From assembly GCF_002777745.1 (NCBI RefSeq), contig NZ_MEIO01000055.1:186001-250000 (forward strand): a DNA stretch of 64,000 nt. The letters are read 5' to 3'. Shown in pieces: positions 15,515-18,845 of this stretch; position 1 is the first letter of the stretch; every line of letters starts with the position of its first letter. The position numbers and the translations under genes were made by a program. The notes beneath the pieces were generated by a model that was not told the DNA's origin, searched no databases, and worked only from the letters and a program-made list of their open reading frames with translations. The stretch is from Snodgrassella alvi (GTDB lineage Bacteria; Pseudomonadota; Gammaproteobacteria; Burkholderiales; Neisseriaceae).

Positions 15515-15568
15515 TTGACGCAGCAAAATCAAAATCCTACCATTCTTGATTAAATAACTTAATCAAGA
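15515..15568 (+). promoter_or_regulatory. Promoter plus 25-bp operator-like palindrome at the umuD start codon
   Basis: TTGACG (15515-15520) and TACCAT (15538-15543) are spaced 17 bp. Immediately after the -10 lies TCTTGATTAA-N5-TTAATCAAGA (15544-15568), a perfect 10-bp inverted repeat whose last base is the A of the umuD ATG. The mRNA would start inside it, with a leader under 20 bases and no ribosome site. It does not resemble the enterobacterial LexA box (CTGT-N8-ACAG). Confidence 0.6.
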
Positions 15569-16191
15569 TGAGCATACTAGTGGTTGATACAGCAGCAAAA
15601 TCCAGCGGACACGGTGGTGCCAGAGCTGGTGCCGGTCGCAAAGCCAAAATTGCCGGACCGAAAATAGTCAAACGCATACCCGTAAGCCTGATACCCGCAG
15701 TAGAACACCTGATCAGCCAGCTAGCTAATACCCCGCTGCGCCCTGCACAAAATCTGCCTGCCGATTGCTGGAAAATAGCCGACAATCTCAGCCAGCTAAA
15801 CATCCCCTTAGCTATAGAAACCATTCCCGCTGGTTTTCCCAGCCCGGCAGAGCCCTACATCAGCGACTATCTGGATTTCAACCAGTATCTGATAAAAAAT
15901 CAGGCAGCCACCATTGCCGTACGCTGCGGCGGAGATTCCATGCACGACGCGGGAATCAGCCGCAACGACCTGCTCATCATTGACCGCTCACTTATCCCCA
16001 AACACCGTGACATCGTTATGGCTGATTTAGGGAATGAATTCACCATCAAACGCCTGCATAAACTGGATAACCACCGTATCGAACTGCATTCCGAAAACAG
16101 CAGCCAGTCCTATCCCAATTTCAGCTTTAAAGAAGGCGACACCCTCGCCATCGTTGGCGTAGTAACCTACGTGATCAAACACATCCGCTAA
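15568..16191 (+). CDS. umuD: UmuD-like S24 self-cleaving mutagenesis protein with N-terminal extension
   Basis: The C-terminal 130 residues are a LexA/UmuD-type S24 domain. The cleavage site Ala-Gly is in IPAGFPSPAEPYIS, the catalytic Ser in VRCGGDSMHDAGI and the catalytic Lys in FTIKRL. UmuD is trimmed during the SOS response and partners UmuC. At 207 residues it is about 70 longer than E. coli UmuD: the extra N-terminus has the glycine/arginine segment HGGARAGAGRKAK, a motif I associate with phage and plasmid DNA-binding proteins. It could therefore also act as a repressor of its own operon. First gene of the repair operon. Confidence 0.88.
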   Translation: MSILVVDTAAKSSGHGGARAGAGRKAKIAGPKIVKRIPVSLIPAVEHLISQLANTPLRPAQNLPADCWKIADNLSQLNIPLAIETIPAGFPSPAEPYISDYLDFNQYLIKNQAATIAVRCGGDSMHDAGISRNDLLIIDRSLIPKHRDIVMADLGNEFTIKRLHKLDNHRIELHSENSSQSYPNFSFKEGDTLAIVGVVTYVIKHIR

Positions 16192-16201
16192 CCCAGAAAT
16201 C

Positions 16202-17599
16202 ATGTTCTCAGACCAGCAACTTGCCTTTATCGATATCGAAACCACCGGTGGCCGCGCCACCGTTGACCGCATTACCGAAATCGCCGTAGTCTACACCGAG
16301 GCCGGCCAGCAACAACCACAGGTTTTCCATACCCTACTTAACCCCGATACCAGCATTCCCCCTTTCATTCAGGCACTCACCGGTATCAGCAATCAGATGG
16401 TAGAACAGGCACCGTATTTCAACGACGAAATTGCCGACCAGCTCAGCGCTATTTTCAAAGAGCGTATTTTCATTGCCCACAACGTACGCTTTGATTATGG
16501 TTTCATCAAAGCCGCCTTCAAACGTCTGGGCAGAACATTCAACCCACAACAGCTATGCACCGTCAAACTATCACGCCAGCTCTATCCTGAGCACAAACAC
16601 CACGGACTGGACAAAATCATCGCCCGTCACCACATCGACATGCACAACCGCCACAGAGCCTTTGCCGATGCACGTGCCATCTACGATTTTTGGCAGCAAC
16701 TTAAACACAACTTTCCAGCCGACACCCTGCATCATGCCTGCAAAACCATCATGCAACGCCCCAGCCTGCCTGCCCATCTCAATAACGATGCCCTGAAAAA
16801 CATCAACGATGATTATGGCGTGTACCTTATATACGGCGATAATGACCTTCCTCTGTATATCGGCAAAAGCAAACAAGTCAAAACCCGTCTGCTGAGCCAT
16901 TTCGGTCAGGATGTACACAACAGCAAAGAAATGAGCCTGTCGCAACAAGCCAAAAAAATCGACGTAATCCCCTGTAGCGGCGAACTGGATGCCCTGCTCA
17001 CCGAATCCGCACAAATCAAACAGCGCCAGCCTATCCTTAACCGCCGCCTGCGCCGTCAGAAAGACTTGTTCAGCTTCCAGCTCAGTACCAATACACACGG
17101 CTACGACACCCTGAATATCGTGCCCATGCGCCATGTCCAGTTCAATCAGCAACAGCGCTACTACGGCCTGTTTCACAGCAAAAGCGATGCCCAGAAAGCC
17201 ATCAAAAACACCATCAATAATACTGATTTATGCCTGCAAACTCTCGGTATCGAAAAAGGCAGCAGCAACCGCCCCTGCTTCCGCCACCAGCTACACCAGT
17301 GCAGCGGTGCCTGCATCAACAAAATCACCGCCGCCACCCACAACCTGAAACTAGCACTGGCATTACAAAAAATCAAACTGGCTGCATGGCCATTTAACAG
17401 CTATGCCTACGTCAAAGAACGGCAAAAATACCACATCTTCCACCATTGGATTTATCTGGGCAGCGCCAGTAACAGCGATGAACTGCACACCATCCTCAGC
17501 CAGCCACAAGGCCAACTGGATCGCGATGTCTACCAAATCATCCAGCAACACAAACACCAACTACAAGCCCTGAACCCTGCCCATGTTTGCCCTGATTGA
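16202..17599 (+). CDS. DEDDh exonuclease fused to a GIY-YIG (UvrC/Cho-like) nuclease
   Basis: The 465-residue product has two nuclease domains. Residues about 1-175 form a DnaQ-like 3'-5' exonuclease: FIDIETTGG, FIAHNVRFDYGFIK, and HRAFADARAIYDFW supply the DEDDh set. From about 202 a GIY-YIG domain follows: DDYGVYLIYGDNDLPLYIGK, then KTRLLSHF, and the Glu in LLTESAQIKQRQPILN. The C-terminal third includes a cysteine-bearing segment (RPCFRHQLHQCSGACINK) as in UvrC homologues. Such fusions are known and resemble Cho plus epsilon. Its place between umuD (10 bases) and umuC (17-base overlap) suggests a damage-processing partner of the translesion polymerase. Confidence 0.88.
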   Translation: MFSDQQLAFIDIETTGGRATVDRITEIAVVYTEAGQQQPQVFHTLLNPDTSIPPFIQALTGISNQMVEQAPYFNDEIADQLSAIFKERIFIAHNVRFDYGFIKAAFKRLGRTFNPQQLCTVKLSRQLYPEHKHHGLDKIIARHHIDMHNRHRAFADARAIYDFWQQLKHNFPADTLHHACKTIMQRPSLPAHLNNDALKNINDDYGVYLIYGDNDLPLYIGKSKQVKTRLLSHFGQDVHNSKEMSLSQQAKKIDVIPCSGELDALLTESAQIKQRQPILNRRLRRQKDLFSFQLSTNTHGYDTLNIVPMRHVQFNQQQRYYGLFHSKSDAQKAIKNTINNTDLCLQTLGIEKGSSNRPCFRHQLHQCSGACINKITAATHNLKLALALQKIKLAAWPFNSYAYVKERQKYHIFHHWIYLGSASNSDELHTILSQPQGQLDRDVYQIIQQHKHQLQALNPAHVCPD

Positions 17600-18845
17600 C
17601 GGCAATAACTTCTATTGCTCCTGTGAAAGAGTGTATCGCCCTGAACTCAAACAGCAGCCCATCATCGTCCTGAGTAACAATGATGGCTGCGTCATCTCCC
17701 GTTCCAGTGAAGCCAAAGATATCGGTATCAAAATGGGTGTCCCCTATTTCCAGATTCAGCATTTCGTTCAACAGGGCAAATTAACCGTTTTTTCCTCCAA
17801 TTACGAACTGTATGCCGACCTGTCACGACGTATGATGAACACCATCGCTTCCCTCGTGCCCGCCATCGAAATCTACTCCATCGACGAATGCTTTGCCGAC
17901 CTGCACGGCCTGAATAACCTGCACCCACTCGGCCATAACATCCGCAACCGCATTCAGCAATGGGTAGGCATCCCCACCTGCGTCGGCATCGCTCCCACCC
18001 GCACCCTAGCCAAATTCTGCAACCATCTGGCCAAACGCCACCGCCACCACTTTAATGGCGTCGTTGTCTGGACAAACTGGAACCGTAACATCCAGCAACG
18101 CGCCCTGGCCAGCTCACCCATAACCGACATCTGGGGTATCGGCCGCAGAATCGGCCAGAAACTCGCTGCTCAGGGCATCCGCACCGCCCTTGACTTCACC
18201 AACGCCCATACCCCCACCCTAAGAAAACAGTTCGGCGTTGTACTCGAACGCACCCAACGCGAAATGCAGGGCATCCCCTGTAGCGAACTCATCATCAACG
18301 AAGCCAGCCGCCAGCACATCGTGCGCAGCCGCAGCTTTGGCAACATAATTACCAGTCTCGATGGCCTGCAAGCCGCCATCAGCCACCACATCACCTCTGG
18401 TGCAGCCAAACTGCGCGACCAAAACAGCCACGCGCATATCCTTGGTGTTTTTATCTACACCAACCGCTTTCGTCACGACCAATCCCAATATAACGGCTAC
18501 CAGTTTATCAAACTGCCACAGCCCAGTGCCGACACCCTCACCCTTAACCATATCGCCCAGAATCTGCTACGCAGCATCTACCGCTCAGGCTATGAATACA
18601 AAAAATGTGGCATCGAACTAAGCGGCATCGAACCAGCACAGACTTTCCAGCAACCGGACTTACTCTGCCCCAGCGAACGCAACCACCGCCCCGAACTCAT
18701 GAATGCATGGGACAACATCACCAGCCGTTACGGCCGCAACAGCATCCAGCTTGGCAGCGAACTGCAATCCAGCCACTGGCACATGACCCGTACCCAGCTC
18801 AGCCCGTGCTATACCACCCAATGGCCAGAACTATTAACCATCTAA
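17583..18845 (+). CDS. umuC: Translesion DNA polymerase UmuC (Y family)
   Basis: Catalytic subunit of Pol V, 420 residues. The palm motifs are complete: MFALIDGNNFYCSCERVYRP (metal Asp), VLSNNDGCVISRS, and EIYSIDECFADLHGL with the SIDE metal site. Then come the helix-hairpin-helix region (DIWGIGRRIGQKLAAQGI) and a little-finger domain. Its ATG overlaps the end of the exonuclease/GIY-YIG gene by 17 bases, indicating translational coupling. C-terminal residues include the UmuC-specific region (ERNHRPELMNAWDNI, SRYGRNSIQLGSEL). Confidence 0.96.
   Translation: MFALIDGNNFYCSCERVYRPELKQQPIIVLSNNDGCVISRSSEAKDIGIKMGVPYFQIQHFVQQGKLTVFSSNYELYADLSRRMMNTIASLVPAIEIYSIDECFADLHGLNNLHPLGHNIRNRIQQWVGIPTCVGIAPTRTLAKFCNHLAKRHRHHFNGVVVWTNWNRNIQQRALASSPITDIWGIGRRIGQKLAAQGIRTALDFTNAHTPTLRKQFGVVLERTQREMQGIPCSELIINEASRQHIVRSRSFGNIITSLDGLQAAISHHITSGAAKLRDQNSHAHILGVFIYTNRFRHDQSQYNGYQFIKLPQPSADTLTLNHIAQNLLRSIYRSGYEYKKCGIELSGIEPAQTFQQPDLLCPSERNHRPELMNAWDNITSRYGRNSIQLGSELQSSHWHMTRTQLSPCYTTQWPELLTI

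Follow-up and report, generated by a model that had tools for sequence, protein, structure and literature searches.

A nuclease of an already published kind, in which an N-terminal exonuclease precedes a Cho-like endonuclease, is joined to the genes of DNA polymerase V (Pol V) in a conserved operon of Snodgrassella alvi, behind a candidate operator similar to that of Acinetobacter UmuDAb; it is this combination that appears to be new. In the window (the whole stretch of 64,000 nucleotides that was analysed), ORF calls place three genes on the forward strand, umuD (207 aa), the exonuclease-Cho fusion gene (465 aa) and umuC (420 aa), preceded by two putative regulatory elements:

15515..15543, + strand: promoter-like TTGACG-17-TACCAT upstream of umuD, 9/12 matches
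15544..15568, no strand assigned: perfect palindrome TCTTGATTAA-ATAAC-TTAATCAAGA, candidate operator; its last base is the A that opens the umuD start codon
15568..16191, + strand: umuD, S24 autoprotease with Ala88-Gly89, Ser124 and Lys161 and an N-terminal extension of ~85 residues (GGARAGAGRK...RIPVS)
16202..17599, + strand: exonuclease-Cho fusion gene (ORF, Pfam, NCBIfam), with an ortholog in 12/14 genomes of the genus
16226..16684, + strand: DEDDh exonuclease domain of the fusion, residues 9-161 (D11, E13, D98, H151, D156)
16814..16936, + strand: GIY-YIG nuclease core of UvrC/Cho type, residues 205-245 (Y208, Y219-G221, R229; then E268)
17231..17314, + strand: four-cysteine stretch of the fusion (C344, C359, C367, C371), invariant in the alignment (21/21)
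17583..18845, + strand: umuC (ORF, Pfam, NCBIfam), with a 17-base overlap with the nuclease gene

ORFs and Pfam domains agree with the initial annotation in placing a two-nuclease protein between umuD and umuC, and the 10-base gap between umuD and the fusion gene and the 17-base overlap of the latter with umuC are both exact in the ORF coordinates. The three activities that it had combined in one unit (incision, 3'-end trimming and translesion synthesis) are all predicted from intact motifs. The start of the unit at 15515 is less secure: a promoter-like match is located there, but such sites are no commoner in the region (six) than in shuffled sequences (mean 6.0), and the match is weak on its own.

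Pol V proteins and repair genes of the host

UmuD contains the Pfam domain Peptidase_S24 and passes the NCBIfam model NF007621 (129.3 vs a cut-off of 110), and its Ala88-Gly89, Ser124 and Lys161 are invariant in an alignment of 19 sequences (A1); the model of its N-terminal extension has a pLDDT under 50 for residues 1-38. UmuC contains IMS, IMS_C and DUF4113, the first two above their Pfam cut-offs, and scores 405.9 against NF002955, below the cut-off of 431. A UmuD with an S24 autoprotease site, paired with a UmuC, identifies the flanking genes as those of Pol V (umuDC). UvrB and a UvrC-like frame are present in the genome. The LexA DNA-binding domain (PF01726) was not detected in this genome, rated 100% complete, where the best match reached 16.5 bits vs a cut-off of 23.7 in a search for which the E. 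coli control was positive; judged by this PF01726 score, the host is without LexA, as in UmuDAb-type systems.

A fusion nuclease of a published kind

The window nuclease is, from its domains, an exonuclease-Cho fusion of a kind already published: one chain carries an N-terminal DEDDh exonuclease and a C-terminal GIY-YIG nuclease of the Cho/UvrC-N type, and the catalytic residues of both are intact in it, as an alignment of 21 sequences (A2) shows. Pfam matches RNase_T and GIY-YIG, the latter at 22.8 bits vs a cut-off of 22.6, and TIGR00573 (epsilon-like exonuclease domain) is the sole NCBIfam family passed among 25 of 37 matches listed. Residues 189-450 match excinuclease Cho (NF007833) with 215.3 bits, below the curated cut-off of 367, and the best score against the PRK07883 group of DEDD exonucleases is 232.9 vs a cut-off of 495 (NF005906). 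Identification as UvrC was rejected, Pfam finding neither a UVR domain nor a C-terminal RNase H-like nuclease at E 0.01 and TIGR00194 scoring 94 vs a cut-off of 285. The fusion showed no recognizable UvrB-binding element. The four-cysteine stretch presumably resembles the [4Fe-4S] region of UvrC. The exonuclease half of the structure model is good and much of the remainder weak, and Foldseek/VIA rows for this model span residues 1-241 only. The role of the DEDDh domain might be that of epsilon in Pol III, here as an external 3'-to-5' proofreader of Pol V, with the GIY-YIG half mainly recruiting it to damage; this is improbable, given that the GIY-YIG residues are conserved in every row of A2 except the paralogue L178.

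As the initial annotation had stated, exonuclease-GIY-YIG fusions are known. Passages of two papers (PMC518961, 2004; PMC1839093, 2007), which refer to Van Houten and others 2002, describe epsilon-like exonuclease-Cho proteins ('Fusion Cho-polIII') of beta-proteobacteria and Mycobacterium, identical to the window nuclease in domain content and order, and already propose sequential or coordinated action of the endonuclease and the exonuclease. These passages make no mention of umuDC, whereas the window gene is located inside it. Among the matches listed from openly licensed PMC papers, none reports an exonuclease-Cho fusion inside umuDC, and an experiment on such a fusion was not found in the openly licensed PMC literature searched. 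Of the system that the initial annotation had called under-described, the placement within umuDC is unreported in that search, and the fusion itself and the idea of cutting and trimming are already published. E. coli Cho resembles the GIY-YIG half and the region following it, and the window fusion is like it without a Pfam UVR match; unlike the fusion, E. coli Cho has no exonuclease domain.

Conservation within Snodgrassella

The nuclease is present in 12 of 14 Snodgrassella genomes and in nine loci of named records (Snodgrassella or uncultured Neisseriaceae), in both cases with 87-100% identity. The order umuD, nuclease, umuC is kept in all 12 Snodgrassella loci, as is the 17-base overlap of the nuclease stop codon and the umuC ATG; the 10-base gap between umuD and the nuclease gene is found in 11 of the 12, and is 5 bases in the other (L012). 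Compared with four relatives, dN/dS is 0.049-0.067 for the nuclease gene, 0.070-0.085 for umuD and 0.072-0.125 for umuC; the nuclease gene is under purifying selection.

In one genome of the genus, G011, UmuC was not matched at E 1e-30. Another, G012, retains umuD-umuC remnants (UmuC at 67% and a broken second copy, with UmuD alongside), and no nuclease match was found in the stretches around umuDC, of which L113 ends at the contig end. Recognition of an empty site in these two genomes was rejected, the best match of the downstream gene there being only 52% and 24% identical.

Linkage to umuDC outside the genus

Coupling of the nuclease with Pol V does occur but is rare, and outside Snodgrassella it was found in one genus only. 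A class-level sample of 369 genomes, in which UmuC was called at E 1e-50, contained 22 genomes with the nuclease, 41 with UmuC and six with both (G000, G086, G113, G232, G332 and G424). The survey of co-occurrence that the initial annotation had suggested gave a divided answer: linkage recurs in a second genus, but most genomes with either gene are unlinked, the two adjoining only in the window's own genome (G000) and G113 (2/22 nuclease genomes and 2/41 UmuC genomes). An exonuclease-GIY-YIG gene was found near none of the 44 other UmuC places (of 46) within flanks of ~4 kb, some shortened by contig ends; an exonuclease-only frame is located near UmuC in L159. In genomes of 1.9-5 Mb, a randomly chosen place would be expected to have a neighbour within 2 kb in about 0.1-0.2% of cases.

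In the family of G113, nuclease matches occur in 18 of 62 genomes (L096 and L097 being matches of the GIY-YIG half only), and the five linked genomes all belong to one genus, the second genus referred to above. The order is umuC-exonuclease-umuD in three of them (G113, G478, G485) and exonuclease-umuC-umuD in two (G480, G484); the nuclease of G480 has one stop in the matched span according to the homology search, yet the ORF list gives an open frame of 479 aa. Among 72 loci of the nuclease, UmuC or UmuD lies within the 1.5-kb flanks in six rows, representing five places, all of the second genus, and 19 phylum-level genomes contained no linkage besides the window's own. The lack of conserved linkage that the initial annotation had named as counting against its proposal is contradicted by 12 of 14 Snodgrassella genomes and by the second genus with its other gene orders.

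The Snodgrassella group and the two second-genus groups are separate, each 100% supported, in a tree of 65 rows. Unlinked relatives are found beside each second-genus group on starred branches, and the branch uniting Snodgrassella with its unlinked neighbours is not starred (89/94). The simplest reading is that linkage was gained independently three times; the alternative would be one old linkage with many losses.

Photolyase-type genes, sought with proteins from four of the same 72 nuclease loci as queries, are located within 1.5 kb of 14 of these loci, including L099, which is among the closest tree relatives of the Snodgrassella branch. Such neighbours of unlinked relatives would tie the nuclease to UV damage and not to Pol V alone, pointing to UV lesions as its target. 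They also lend some weight to an explanation by co-regulation only, in which a general back-up repair enzyme joins any damage-responsive operon, shares the Pol V promoter and acts separately. Most homologues of the nuclease are unlinked to umuDC, and E. coli cho is LexA-regulated, according to a passage of PMC3820734, yet not adjacent to umuDC. This explanation is quite possible but on balance doubtful: two lineages have the nuclease gene flanked by umuC and umuD, their gene orders being opposite, with a 17-base overlap or abutting ends, an arrangement that exceeds what shared regulation needs.

Carriage as mobile-element cargo was rejected as the main reading. Searches with tblastn matched the nuclease in 312 plasmid records, eight of which covered at least 80% of it, and in 93 phage records, none of which covered 80%. 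Among the eight plasmid neighbourhoods inspected, umuDC was not annotated beside the full-length fusion in Legionella and Acidithiobacillus, and phmmer searches of the stretches from Legionella, Acidithiobacillus and Cupriavidus (the last unannotated) were negative for UmuC and UmuD. In two Arsenophonus plasmids, umuC adjoins a Cho-like gene that is not a fusion. None of ten viral-contig loci of the nuclease had UmuC.

Putative regulatory elements

The palindrome at 15544-15568 is perfect (10+5+10), and with up to 3 mismatches allowed the genome contains no other copy. Of the 12 Snodgrassella loci, 11 share the inner 21-mer unchanged, L013 having an altered form. Conservation in the upstream region is highest in this block (0.99), an effect to which proximity to the start codon may contribute. 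An E. coli-type LexA box was rejected, the best score at the operon (6/8) being equalled in 45% of shuffles. The operator consensus of UmuDAb is TTGA(N4)GTWAC(N4)TCAA (passage in PMC11332147), and the window palindrome, TTGA-TTAA-ATAAC-TTAA-TCAA, matches it at 12 of 13 specified positions, the first base of the core (GTWAC vs ATAAC) being the one that differs; the palindrome is a candidate operator. The likeness to UmuDAb extends to an enlarged UmuD (the N-terminal extension of UmuDAb is 59 residues according to a passage of PMC4807011), to the lack of a detected LexA and to a 21-bp TTGA-N13-TCAA palindrome. Unlike the UmuDAb gene, the window umuD is the first gene of a Pol V operon that includes a nuclease. 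The similarity suggests that UmuDAb-like self-regulation may operate in a bee symbiont without detected LexA.

The association of operator class with the UmuD extension was considered in 44 umuD upstream regions; places with only a short upstream sequence had been left out, and in five of the rows another gene precedes umuD in the operon. The GGxRxGAGR extension is common, being found in 24 of the 44 UmuD rows. A 22-bp UmuDAb-like template, composed after these upstream sequences had been viewed, scored at least 10/12 in nine of the 24 upstream regions of umuD with the extension and in none of the 20 without (Fisher 0.002); the other 15 extension-bearing rows are below that score. A full CTGT-N8-ACAG is present in none of the 24 and in six of the 20 (Fisher 0.005). 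The apparent association is taken as a lead only. UmuDAb-like boxes are also present upstream of extension-type umuD in one Acinetobacter plasmid and one viral contig, and a UmuDAb-type box precedes an Acinetobacter umuD without the extension (L182), so that the neighbouring UmuD is not necessarily the protein that binds such a box.

In the second genus, TTGAAAAGTGTTAC is located in front of umuC in all five linked places. In two of these, G480 and G484, the element separates the upstream nuclease gene from umuC, and the nuclease gene need not be under its control there. The pattern CTG-N10-CAG is sporadic upstream of other genes for the nuclease (5/48 loci scanned).

A possible repair pathway

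Co-expression of the three genes is likely and well supported, and a coupled repair pathway is plausible. The reading that we prefer, which we put at a little under even, is a damage-inducible, self-regulated, error-prone repair operon that combines a Cho-like 3' cut, 3'-to-5' trimming and filling by Pol V. In the undamaged cell, the N-terminal extension of UmuD would keep the operon off at the palindrome. Upon damage, a RecA filament would promote cleavage of UmuD at Ala88-Gly89, as expected from the UmuD, LexA and UmuDAb families, freeing the promoter and supplying UmuD' for Pol V. The GIY-YIG domain would cut in the manner of Cho on the 3' side of the lesion, probably with UvrA and UvrB, the DEDDh domain would trim 3'-to-5' from that cut in the direction of the lesion or beyond it, and the gap would be filled, or damage within it bypassed, by UmuD'2C. 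The order of cutting and trimming follows from polarity, because a Cho-type 3' cut, judging from the family, would leave on the lesion strand a 3' end that is a substrate for DEDDh exonucleases.

The proposed operon is favoured by the intact motifs, the kept gene order, the low dN/dS, the linkage in a second genus, the palindrome, the lack of a LexA domain and the presence of UvrB, and also by the photolyase neighbours and by two published findings: a GIY-YIG exonuclease is predicted to be SOS-regulated in Bacteroidetes (passage in PMC8565304), and in NER-induced mutagenesis of E. coli, as described in a passage of PMC5521853, an exonuclease not yet identified widens the gaps made by nucleotide excision repair (NER), and Pol V fills them. 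The steps are the same in principle (incision, exonucleolytic widening of the gap, filling); incision in E. coli is by UvrC, and the window operon has a Cho-like fusion instead. Simple transfer from E. coli is opposed by the epistasis of uvrC, not cho, in NER-induced mutagenesis (same passage of PMC5521853) and by the lack of an effect of cho when NER removes Pol V-inserted ribonucleotides (PMC3820734). The latter process raises another explanation, that the nuclease cleans up Pol V products by removing ribonucleotides or mismatched ends; this is very improbable, since E. coli NER does perform such removal but the same work gave cho no role in it.

Evidence against the preferred reading includes the rarity of the linkage, the umuDC of G012 without a nuclease match, the position of the element in G480 and G484, the low-confidence model of the UmuD extension, the box of L182 and the lack of an identified UvrB-binding element. 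The dedicated incise-trim-bypass machine envisaged by the initial annotation has in its favour a conserved unit, intact motifs and linkage in the second genus, but the linkage is rare and the nuclease gene of G480 and G484 is upstream of the element. A stronger version of the preferred reading, which we consider rather unlikely, is a LexA-independent nick-trim-bypass cassette, assembled more than once, in which UmuD would act as a repressor that senses damage as well as a subunit of the polymerase, and one nuclease chain would nick on the 3' side, chew back and pass the gap to Pol V.

A role for exonuclease-Cho fusions was proposed over twenty years ago, and their placement inside umuDC, differently ordered across lineages, suggests which polymerase may be the partner of the fusion. 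Incision, enlargement and filling would all be provided by the one operon, whereas the E. coli model is without an identified gap-enlarging exonuclease. If the nick-trim-bypass cassette exists, removal of lesions and mutagenic refilling would be one genetically encoded pathway.

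Related nuclease genes and their neighbourhoods

The genome of the window (G000) encodes a paralogue of the fusion nuclease, which has kept the exonuclease motifs and the cysteines but no longer has the GIY-YIG motif; similar proteins of about 480 amino acids are present in further genomes of the family.

L178:3245-4594 (contig C49 of G000), - strand, second exonuclease/UvrC-N-like protein

Plasmids carry other arrangements of such genes. In those of Arsenophonus apicola, which came from honey bees, a Cho-like GIY-YIG gene adjoins umuC in opposite orientation, and this is a further Pol V/Cho neighbourhood from a bee-associated bacterium.

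L042:1987-4656, Legionella israelensis plasmid, three consecutive genes: 3'-5' exonuclease, small GIY-YIG nuclease, full exonuclease-Cho fusion
L045:4455-6786 and L049:3391-5717, A. apicola plasmids, adjoining, divergent umuC and Cho-like GIY-YIG genes

Broken umuD-umuC copies occur in a Snodgrassella-genus genome (G012, loci L113 and L114); the sequence retrieved around them, which at L113 stops at a contig end, gave no match to the nuclease.

In the umuD upstream regions compared (L133-L177), umuD genes encoding a GGxRxGAGR N-terminal extension tend to be preceded by TTGA...GTAC...TCAA palindromes, and those without it by E. coli-type LexA boxes; extension and upstream box type possibly divide umuD genes into two regulatory classes.

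At L083, L084, L087, L088, L099, L132 and other loci, exonuclease-Cho genes lie next to genes for photolyases or related proteins and for DUF2805 and DUF3429 proteins, a grouping that may constitute a UV-repair cluster.
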